This document shows, piece after piece, positions 10,493 through 13,549 of a stretch of DNA of 64,000 nt (positions are counted from its first letter, which is position 1; each line of letters opens with the position of its first letter). Made by a program: the position numbers and the translations under genes. The notes under the pieces were generated by a model, which saw nothing but the letters and a program-made list of their open reading frames with translations, was not told the origin of the DNA and did no database searches. Source of the DNA: Bdellovibrio sp. BCCA (GTDB lineage: Bacteria; Bdellovibrionota; Bdellovibrionia; Bdellovibrionales; Bdellovibrionaceae); assembly GCF_037996825.1 (NCBI RefSeq), contig NZ_JBBNAC010000001.1, forward strand, positions 1,054,001-1,118,000, in the 5' to 3' direction.

Positions 10493-10523
10493 AAAAAAGA
10501 AAAAATCCCTCGATGGGGATTTT
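10493..10523 (-). terminator. intrinsic terminator T2 after the GEMM RNA
   Basis: On the minus strand AAAATCCC / GGGATTTT closes over a short ATCGA loop and is followed by TTCTTTTTT. It backs up the terminator 20 bases upstream. Confidence 0.75.
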
Positions 10524-10538
10524 AATTCGCAAGGTCCT

Positions 10539-10581
10539 AAAAAAAGTGCTTGCGAGGAATCTTCAGTGATAACTCGCAAGC
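10539..10581 (-). terminator. intrinsic terminator T1 after the GEMM RNA
   Basis: On the minus strand GCTTGCGAG pairs with CTCGCAAGC (nine base pairs, 16-base loop), followed two bases later by seven T. It ends a transcript coming through the c-di-GMP aptamer about 75 bases after the aptamer's closing helix. Confidence 0.75.
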
Positions 10582-10655
10582 TAAGGGGAATGAAACCAAT
10601 CCTTGTATGTAATTGTTCCTTCCATATGCACACCTCTGATTCCTCAGGTGACTCA

Positions 10656-10742
10656 CCTTTGGCAGCTGGCTGGCGTGGTTCGCACCGACACCCCTTTAGC
10701 TTTGCGTCCCGCCGTTTCCGACGGTTTGCCTTGAGGCAAAGG
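10656..10742 (-). ncRNA. cyclic-di-GMP-I (GEMM) riboswitch aptamer
   Basis: On the minus strand the segment AAGGCAAACCGTCGGAAACG, then GGCGGGACGCAAAGC, then GCCAGCCAGCTGCC reproduces the conserved core of the GEMM-I class: the GGCAAACC entry, the P2 stem capped by a GAAA-type tetraloop, the invariant GGGACGCAAAGC junction, and the P3 receptor side. CCTTTG and CAAAGG close P1 at the two ends. GEMM-I RNAs bind cyclic di-GMP. Here no gene start follows within reach: two intrinsic terminators (T1, T2) come first, so the RNA may be a free-standing product of about 220 bases. A massively expressed free GEMM RNA (merRNA) has been reported from attack-phase Bdellovibrio; this may be its counterpart, which I cannot confirm. 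Confidence 0.88.
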
Positions 10743-10761
10743 AAGGATCTAAATCCTAACG

Positions 10762-10767
10762 AGTATA
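10762..10767 (-). promoter_or_regulatory. candidate -10 box for the GEMM RNA
   Basis: TATACT on the minus strand, one change from TATAAT, would start RNA near 10755, about a dozen bases before the aptamer's P1 helix. No convincing -35 is seen 16-18 bases upstream. Confidence 0.35.
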
Positions 10768-10876
10768 ACCCTAGGAACCTCCTTTGAGTTATTCTTGATA
10801 GATCCAACCAGTTCATCGTTTTTTTAGAGAGGCCTGAACCCGAAACCTCTTGGTAGCAATCCTGGTGATTCGCACG

Positions 10877-10921
10877 TCACTTCGGTGGTTCATCATGATG
10901 ATCGTGAATTCGATTTTTCAT
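10877..10921 (-). CDS. 14-codon leader-type ORF (MKNRIHDHHDEPPK)
   Basis: Very short ORF: ATG at 10921, 14 codons, TGA. It is reported because AAGGGAGGA lies exactly five bases before the ATG, one of the best ribosome sites in the window, and because a structured leader precedes it (10934-11005). The peptide MKNRIHDHHDEPPK is rich in His and Asp. It could be a regulatory leader peptide whose translation controls RNA folding, or a true small protein. It is not hydrophobic, so it is unlike type I toxins. Nothing co-directional follows until the GEMM RNA. Confidence 0.45.
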   Translation of the reverse strand: MKNRIHDHHDEPPK

Positions 10922-10933
10922 CCGCGTCCTCCC

Positions 10934-11005
10934 TTAGCTTGGCCCTAAAAGCTTTCACTTACCCGAGGTAAGTCTCCCGAGCCATGTGGTTTCAACTCTT
11001 TTAGG
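10934..11005 (-). ncRNA. structured 5' leader, riboswitch-like
   Basis: On the minus strand CCTAAAAG (11005-10998) pairs with CTTTTAGG (10951-10944), enclosing a CTTAC/GTAAG hairpin (10958-10972) and a conserved-looking AACCACATGGCTCGGGAGA stretch. The 3' side of the long helix can instead pair locally (AGCTT with AAGCT just downstream), so two exclusive folds sit directly before a strong ribosome site. It matches none of the riboswitch consensus sequences I know (TPP, SAM, FMN, purine, cobalamin, c-di-GMP-I/II, fluoride, ZTP). Confidence 0.45.
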
Positions 11006-11115
11006 ATAGCTCGACCAAAGTTTTATTTTCAATAGCACCACTGTCGATTCTCAAAATATGTCGAAAATGCGTTTCGCTCCGAGAATAAGGCGGGGATCTT
11101 GTTTTAAGCTGAAAC

Positions 11116-11170: not shown

Positions 11171-12202
11171 TTATCGACAAGGGGAGCTCGCTGTCACTTC
11201 CTCATAAGTACAACTTACGTCTCCTCTTTTCGCTTCTTCTTTAGCTTGATCCAACGAACACGCTGGCTGAAATCTTTCCCCAGGAGTGAACATAAGTTGC
11301 CCCTTGCTATCATAGCAACGTCTACACAAAATGAAATACTGAGGCCATTGGCCTTCCGGGCAGGGACTTGTCACTTCAGTTTGAAGTTCAGTGCTCGCGG
11401 AAAACTTCGCTTTTTTTATCTCTGTTTTTTGATACGCATCTAGACTTGCAACAATCTTATATTCAATGGAGCCGCTGCCTAAATGAACCCCGGATCTTTG
11501 ATCAATAATATTTCCAACGTATTCGGCGTTTTTAAATTCTTTCCCGCCAACGCCTTGGTTGCGTATCATTTTACTTCCACGATAGACCTTTACATTGTTC
11601 GCTCCACTCACTCTCCATGAAACAGGAACGTCAATCTTTGTCGTATCTTCAGGATGCCTATTCACTCTTTCCGGCACAGTCAGAAAGACTTGCGGTTTGC
11701 CAGCTCTAACCATCAAATGAGAAATACTTTTTCTTTTACTGTTTGGTTCGTTGTCGTATTGAGGATTGATAGACTCTTCCGTGAAGGAAAGGTCGATAAC
11801 AATAGCTGATGGAGTATGCGGAGACGCCATCTTGTATGGGTTGTGAATGGAAATAACACGATCCCAGGTTTTTGTTTTTGTGTCGGACCCCACATCGGCT
11901 GTCGTATAGAACATTCGTTTTTGGTCTACGAGTTCAGTTGATCTTTTGGGAATATCAGTGACATGTTCAAGTTCAATTCCACTTACTCGTACTGTGAGTT
12001 TATTGAAAAGGCCTTGTCTGATAATGAACTCGAATGAAGAAGGGTCCCCAAAGACAATCCCTTGCTTGTCAGGGGCTTCGAGAATTTGGATCATGGCCGG
12101 AGGGGCATTGTTTTTAATTTGATCTACGCTTTTGGTAAGCGATTGGCAGCCGATATTGGCTAAGACGAAAAATAAAATCGTAAACTTGGGATTAATTTTC
12201 AT
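11171..12202 (-). CDS. lipoprotein of unknown function
   Basis: 343 residues from the ATG at 12202, preceded by AAAGGAAGTGCTC; a longer in-frame start at 12232 lacks a site. The signal MKINPKFTILFFVLANIGC ends in a lipobox with Cys19. The mature part looks like two beta-sandwich domains (about 50-165 and 175-285), ending in a Cys-rich tail (CPEGQWPQYFILCRRCY and VSCTYEEVTASSPCR) that probably forms disulfides. Monocistronic, with its own terminator. I do not recognise the family. Confidence 0.7.
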   Translation of the reverse strand: MKINPKFTILFFVLANIGCQSLTKSVDQIKNNAPPAMIQILEAPDKQGIVFGDPSSFEFIIRQGLFNKLTVRVSGIELEHVTDIPKRSTELVDQKRMFYTTADVGSDTKTKTWDRVISIHNPYKMASPHTPSAIVIDLSFTEESINPQYDNEPNSKRKSISHLMVRAGKPQVFLTVPERVNRHPEDTTKIDVPVSWRVSGANNVKVYRGSKMIRNQGVGGKEFKNAEYVGNIIDQRSGVHLGSGSIEYKIVASLDAYQKTEIKKAKFSASTELQTEVTSPCPEGQWPQYFILCRRCYDSKGQLMFTPGERFQPACSLDQAKEEAKRGDVSCTYEEVTASSPCR

Positions 12203-12305
12203 GAGCACTTCCTTTAAATAAGAAATGCTCACATATTAAAACCTCAAATCAACATGAAAATTGGTTTACAAGACCTTCATCCAAAAGTCGCACTTTTGCG
12301 AAACT

Positions 12306-13150: not shown

Positions 13151-13549
13151 ATGAATAGCCAAGACTTTTTGACATTGAATTTAGTTGGAGCGGGGGCTTT
13201 CATCTTCTGGTATCTCGTATCGCGCGGAGGATCACGTCGTCCGACGCAGTTAAATATGAAAGCCAAGGATAGCGCACCGCCACTCATGGAAGCGACACCA
13301 GAACCTCCAACCACGGCGGGTGTAGCTTTGCGTCGTCATCCCGACGTTGAAGGCACCGTTACAAAAAGCCTGAATGTGATGTTTAACTACAATGGACACA
13401 GCTGGGACGCCTATGAAGTCTTGGGAGTTCCAGCGGGAGCGTCTTTAAAAATCGTCACCGAGGCTTATCAGGCCGCCATTCGCCGATCAGATAAAGAGTC
13501 TTTGGAGTTTTTAGAGACGGCCTATAAGGCGATTTTGAATAAAAGTTAG
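13151..13549 (+). CDS. membrane-anchored J-like domain protein
   Basis: 132 residues. An N-terminal membrane helix (FLTLNLVGAGAFIFWYLV) is followed by a Pro-rich linker and a C-terminal J-domain-like fold: WDAYEVLGVPAGASLKIVTE then AYQAAIRRSDKESLEFLE and a final AYKAIL. The canonical HPD tripeptide that stimulates Hsp70 ATPase is missing, so this is a degenerate J-like protein more likely used for protein binding. It is transcribed away from mrp with 50 bases between starts. Confidence 0.65.
   Translation: MNSQDFLTLNLVGAGAFIFWYLVSRGGSRRPTQLNMKAKDSAPPLMEATPEPPTTAGVALRRHPDVEGTVTKSLNVMFNYNGHSWDAYEVLGVPAGASLKIVTEAYQAAIRRSDKESLEFLETAYKAILNKS

Follow-up and report, generated by a model that had tools for sequence, protein, structure and literature searches.

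A single-copy c-di-GMP-I RNA of Bdellovibrio sp. BCCA, orthologous to merRNA, with one well-supported and one probable micro-ORF

Typical members of the c-di-GMP-I (GEMM-I) riboswitch class lie within the 5' UTR of an ordinary gene. In Bdellovibrio bacteriovorus HD100, a 445-nt RNA termed merRNA was mapped at 1,073,741-1,074,185 (-) by 5'-end and RNA sequencing; its reads in attack phase were about equal to the total of all protein-coding genes, and its growth-phase level was 5006-fold below that of attack phase (Karunker et al. 2013, PMC3627812). The authors described it as an ncRNA, reported that no conserved ORF followed the riboswitch, saw no conservation outside the Bdellovibrio lineage, and proposed that it serves as a c-di-GMP reservoir (Karunker et al. 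2013, PMC3627812). Few RNAs of this free-swimming bacterial predator are as abundant as merRNA. Here, we analyzed a 64,000-nt stretch of the genome of Bdellovibrio sp. BCCA (contig NZ_JBBNAC010000001.1, positions 1,054,001 to 1,118,000; hereafter the window). What appears to be new in this published ncRNA is a pair of micro-ORFs, the first well supported and the second probable, together with a covarying helix where the second one starts. Our literature search, for which subscription journals were largely out of reach, found no prior report of micro-ORFs in merRNA.

The aptamer and its merRNA context

A cmscan of the whole window gave a single match, to RF01051 at 10740-10658 (-), covering all 87 model positions (1-87) with an E value of 1.3e-9. 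The score of 61.5 bits, compared with a gathering score of 35, indicates that the sequence and secondary structure of a c-di-GMP-I riboswitch are both present, as a sequence-only reading of this DNA had proposed. Other RNA families gave only sub-threshold chance matches in the region, and no DNA similarity was found in phage records. The aptamer was the sole copy in the 4.01-Mb genome. Within the bacterial family, 59 of 66 genomes carried RF01051, and within the order 88 of 140 did, always as exactly one copy per genome; none of 14 control genomes had it.

Genome G006, which we take to be B. bacteriovorus HD100, carried its aptamer at 1,073,868-1,073,951 (-). In the genus alignment, the window sequence matched the HD100 merRNA from end to end, and mrp was located upstream on the same strand in both genomes. 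The aptamer and the homology to merRNA are established, and by this alignment the window RNA is the orthologue of Bdellovibrio merRNA, a known RNA with a textbook aptamer. The sequence-only reading had pointed to a massively expressed RNA of attack-phase Bdellovibrio, a link that the alignment confirms. The mapped 5' end aligned with about position 10986, which places it 246 nt before the aptamer (compared with 234 nt in HD100) and gives an RNA of about 450 nt (about 10986-10539) rather than the ~220 nt first suggested (Table 1). With the 5' end ~246 nt upstream of the aptamer, the TATACT box (10767-10762) previously read as a promoter is internal to the mapped RNA; it was also not kept in other genera, and we rejected it. 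TTGAAA-N18-TATCCT formed a conserved block amid variable flanks in the genus alignment and may be the better promoter candidate, with the published 5' end 17 nt past its -10 element, farther than usual. The arms of the 5' stem-loop were variable yet still complementary in the genus alignment, as judged by eye. The 5' domain alone folded no better than shuffles (z 0.43), which is in keeping with a partly coding sequence.

At the other end, terminator 1 was kept throughout the genus alignment, and its stem begins on the final base of the ORF2 stop codon. All 85 loci with enough sequence had a U-run 30-220 nt behind the aptamer. The tandem terminators described earlier both exist, but only the first is general; the second was not found in HD100 or in most relatives. 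Directly behind the aptamer no ordinary-sized gene started, and the HD100 sequence past the terminator holds an apparently convergent gene (by eye). Of the 88 loci, 57 had mrp/ApbC (Pfam ParA/NUBPL-type NTPase) upstream in the same orientation, also in other families of the order, which indicates that the loci are for the most part orthologous. A probable lipoprotein gene (11171-12232, -; 353 aa, no Pfam match) is located between mrp and merRNA in this genome. A 132-aa protein with a J-domain-like end (13151-13549, +) adjoins mrp and is its neighbour in 49 of the 88 loci.

Table 1 Features of the merRNA orthologue, in window coordinates (asterisk, stop codon)
Feature	Position	Strand	Basis
Whole merRNA orthologue, about 448 nt	10539..10986	-	aligned with HD100 transcript 1,074,185-1,073,741
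Candidate promoter TTGAAA-N18-TATCCT	11003..11032 (-35 11032-11027, -10 11008-11003)	-	consensus scan
5' stem-loop GGCUCGGGAGACUUACC-UCG-GGUAAGU...GGGCC	10941..10983	-	predicted fold
Micro-ORF1, MKNRIHDHHDEPPK*	10877..10921	-	translation; coding score; Shine-Dalgarno AAGGGAGG at 10935-10928
CAAAGGAGG, possible anti-P1 switching strand (helix A)	10778..10786	-	9-bp complement of 10745-10737
P0 5' strand UCCUUCC	10741..10747	-	pairs with 10623-10617; compensatory changes in relatives
c-di-GMP-I (GEMM-I) aptamer	10658..10740	-	RF01051, 61.5 bits
Platform hairpin CACCUGA-GGAA-UCAGAGGUG, holding the ORF2 Shine-Dalgarno GAGGUG	10631..10650	-	sequence
P0 3' strand GGAAGGA, overlapping ORF2 start AUGGAAGGA	10617..10623	-	covariation
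Micro-ORF2 (probable), MEGTITYKDWFHSP*	10581..10625	-	translation; frame conservation
Intrinsic terminator 1	10539..10581 (stem 10581-10573 with 10556-10548, U-run 10545-10539)	-	sequence
Second terminator-like hairpin, not general	about 10499..10523	-	sequence

Short open reading frames in front of and behind the aptamer

Micro-ORF1 opens upstream of the aptamer in the context AAGGGAGGACGCGG-ATG and spans 12-15 codons across loci. Its HD100 form, MRTHEHHDDELK*, is in frame, 6 bases shorter, and located at 1,074,121-1,074,083 inside the mapped transcript. In one further genus (g3) the same layout ended in HNDK[STAV]PK*, and two other families of the order (f4 and f10) carried forms such as MAKRPKDWRLDPPPK*, MYKLPKDWRLDSPPK*, MSKLPKEWLLDPPPK*, and MKVNPMEWRRDPPPE*. 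ORF1 was spread across the order, with forms extending up to ...PKDWRLDPPPK*, and the prolines of DPPPK in other families used all four codons (CCA, CCC, CCG, CCT).

The coding test made for this analysis compared observed BLOSUM62 scores with the expectation for equal base changes, with column shuffles as the null. ORF1 scored 2182 in the genus, against a shuffle mean of -210 (sd 640), and 874 in the f4/f10 set, against -131 (sd 201), with 0 of 1000 shuffles in both cases; in g3 the count was 1 of 1000. Both other forward frames scored far lower, and a fairly high score (706) was reached by one reverse frame in the f4/f10 set. A strict pattern requiring a Shine-Dalgarno sequence, a start, 8-20 codons, and a stop motif was found in 45 of 85 loci and in none of the controls, which were the reverse strand (0/85), the region 670-1000 bases upstream, and the downstream region; the pattern was tuned on the same loci, so its weight rests on these controls and not on the raw count. 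No ORF1 was found at the mrp locus of order members lacking a GEMM-I match; in this search for the peptide without the aptamer, a pattern match in G053 was rejected as it was not a short ORF. The published description of merRNA as non-coding does not agree with these shuffle values and locus counts. ORF1 combines a Shine-Dalgarno sequence with coding-type conservation, as expected of a peptide-coding RNA, and its coding signature is clear; by these sequence comparisons it is a well-supported conserved peptide ORF, whose translation in cells we infer.

Behind the aptamer follow a hairpin with GAGGUG in its 3' arm, an AUG, and then ORF2, which in HD100 is located at 1,073,832-1,073,788, inside the mapped transcript. 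By eye, relatives showed the hairpin variants UACCUAAG/CUUAGAGGU and CCGA/UCGAGG. Within the family, ORF2 started with MEG or MEV and ended with DWFHSP*, FHSP*, or FYSP*, joined by a linker of varying length. The distance from ATGGRA to TTTCATTCCCC was divisible by three in 45 of 49 genomes, and 18 of 21 genus-by-length classes kept the frame (binomial p 1.1e-6 at 1/3); G004, G032, and G071 had a broken frame. Conservation of the ORF2 frame is established, and it is by frame only that ORF2 resembles a coding sequence: the substitution test was not significant (51, 64, and 40 of 500 shuffles), owing to a 3' half with very little nucleotide variation. For this reason we call ORF2 a probable, not a proven, second peptide ORF. 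Judging from the invariance, a constraint at the RNA level must also act on its 3' half.

Neither peptide is universal, since one genus (g6) was without ORF1, families f4 and f10 were without ORF2, and family f6 had neither ORF in this form. Our literature search found no ribosome profiling of Bdellovibrio and no peptide mass spectrometry for ORF1 or ORF2. The segment UUUCAUUCCCCUUAG (10581-10597, -) was almost invariant across genera, without synonymous change; further possible pairing partners for it are the aptamer's GCUAnAGGGG (with one bulge) and, in part, AAGGAGG. Some unrelated genomes (Bacteroidota, Paenibacillus, and others) also contained the exact 17-mer from the end of ORF2, matches that we attribute to chance.

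Pairing around the aptamer and possible roles of the RNA

The helix P0 joins the segment next to the aptamer to the start of ORF2. Both of its sides had changed together to UACUUCC/GGAAGUA in g3, AAUCCUUCC/GGGAGGAUU in f10, UUCUUCC/GGAAGAA in G112, and CCUCUCU/AGAGAGG in G052. The per-genome comparison of P0 covered most genomes, and its single-genome shuffle values were mostly not significant alone. In the alignment of 34 family members, P0 and P1 (the aptamer's closing stem) together had 95.7% paired cells compared with 92.6 in shuffles, 8 double-change cells compared with 2.1, and a covariation of 0.134 compared with 0.079 (0/500 shuffles each), and their scores clearly exceeded those of slid versions. 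Covariation of P0 is established, and it represents few events because most double-change cells came from one clade. As to a platform controlling an adjacent gene, what we found is a covarying P0 overlapping the ORF2 start and no conserved large gene.

A further strand, CAAAGGAGG, can pair with CUUCCUUUG (10745-10737), which would exclude P1. AGGAGG was present at this position in 71 of 85 loci, compared with 2 expected. This helix A showed no covariation beyond shuffles within the family; the changed pair AAAGGAAGU/ACUUCCUUU in G050 is suggestive of it. CAAAGGAGG also matches the Shine-Dalgarno sequence perfectly, and no start codon follows it. The aptamer start can form a UUUGCC-UCAA-GGCAAA hairpin, which dominated the free state of most genomes in folding models. 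Forcing P1 cost 2.7-8.2 kcal/mol in these models, a predicted cost that is within reach of a ligand with a Kd near 1 nM (value cited in PMC3627812). P1 and P0 have two C residues in common, and the models gave no consistent change in start-codon exposure between the two modelled states.

With moderate confidence, we favour the explanation that merRNA is a separately transcribed, single-copy, ~450-nt, peptide-coding c-di-GMP-I RNA with its own terminator, which may also buffer c-di-GMP. The 5' strand of the closing stem, UCCUUCCUUUG, would have rival partners in P1 (the 3' side of the aptamer), P0 (the ORF2 start), and perhaps CAAAGGAGG. Binding of c-di-GMP would shift the balance between these partners, and the shift would set the translation of ORF2, or the stability of the RNA, in attack phase; the high RNA level would meanwhile buffer c-di-GMP. 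Control by the ligand, the direction of the switch, and any function of the peptides are what we infer from this arrangement. If true, the layout would be unusual for a riboswitch, with a stand-alone RNA in which micro-ORFs flank the aptamer on both sides, and if the peptides are coded under c-di-GMP control, the reservoir model would need revision. A bolder version, which we regard as unlikely, is that merRNA is a c-di-GMP-gated micropeptide mRNA that, instead of just storing the messenger, might keep ribosomes parked while the predator is not growing and release them once contact with prey alters c-di-GMP; ribosome parking comes to mind because several micropeptides finish at the stop on Pro-rich codons that are slow to complete (DPPPK*, DPPPE*, FHSP*).

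The published alternative is a non-coding reservoir, in which merRNA only binds and releases c-di-GMP and the ORFs are incidental or leftover. It agrees with attack-phase reads close to those of all protein-coding genes and ~5000-fold above growth phase (PMC3627812), with the lack of a conserved large gene downstream, and with lone free-standing GEMM-I RNAs without evident micro-ORFs in other classes of the phylum. However, the ORF1 coding signature is clear over several families and the ORF2 frame survives indels, and a pure sponge needs neither ORF, so we consider this alternative doubtful, though it deserves more weight than the others. The sequence-only reading had likewise proposed a free-standing sponge: its sponge matches the published reservoir proposal (PMC3627812) and the absence of a conserved large gene supports free-standing, but the RNA carries a conserved ORF1 and a probable ORF2 and is not purely non-coding. 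A trans-acting sRNA, whose invariant UUUCAUUCCCCUU before the terminator would pair with Shine-Dalgarno regions of target mRNAs while c-di-GMP gates the seed, seems quite improbable to us. The near invariance of UUUCAUUCCCCUUAG without synonymous change across many genera would suit such a seed, as would the C-rich stretches at or in the terminators of other families, but a trans-acting sRNA would account neither for the frame constraint on the linker of ORF2 nor for the coding signal of ORF1, and the C-rich stretch might instead find its partner within the RNA, either in the GGGG of the aptamer or in AAGGAGG.

It is very improbable that the RNA is a cis-riboswitch with a conditional terminator controlling the downstream KH-domain (KhpA-type) gene. 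A gene with a KhpA/KhpB-type KH domain does lie behind the terminators on the same strand (10382-10065, -). However, a KH homologue was downstream of the RNA in only 1 of 88 loci, that of this genome, a strong terminator precedes the gene, and in HD100 the RNA does not extend past the first terminator. Read-through into the KH gene, which the sequence-only reading had offered as an alternative, was rejected on the locus count; being behind merRNA only here, the gene has probably moved in recently. A CsrA sponge, considered on account of several GGA motifs, was set aside since genus g3 is without the GGA loop of the platform hairpin.

Wider distribution and comparison with known systems

In other classes of the phylum, GEMM-I RNAs were found in 100 of 240 sampled genomes, once in each. 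Many of them (L190-L208) shared a second flanking design, UGAAGAGG...[aptamer]...CCUCUUCA followed by a terminator, in which we found no evident micro-ORFs and no mrp in the fetched flank. The same design has GGGGGGUCCCC...GGACCCCC behind the aptamer. The lone free-standing GEMM-I RNA may be old in the phylum, and the micro-ORFs may be a feature of the window's order.

The closest known system is the HD100 merRNA (PMC3627812), which has the same aptamer, 5' domain, and terminator, and with which our genome aligns over the whole transcript. It was published as an ncRNA, whereas we find one well-supported and one probable micro-ORF, and it was published without conservation outside the Bdellovibrio lineage, whereas single GEMM-I RNAs occur by mrp in other families of the order. 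Compared with the RF01051 riboswitches, the aptamer fits the family in sequence and fold. Unlike in typical GEMM-I members, it is located within a short RNA, preceded by one micro-ORF and followed by another and a terminator. Dual-function small RNAs with a peptide ORF, such as VcdRP of Vibrio cholerae (PMC8672173; survey in PMC5521070), are likewise abundant, were first seen as regulatory, and carry a short conserved ORF. In contrast to these, merRNA holds a second-messenger aptamer between two ORFs.
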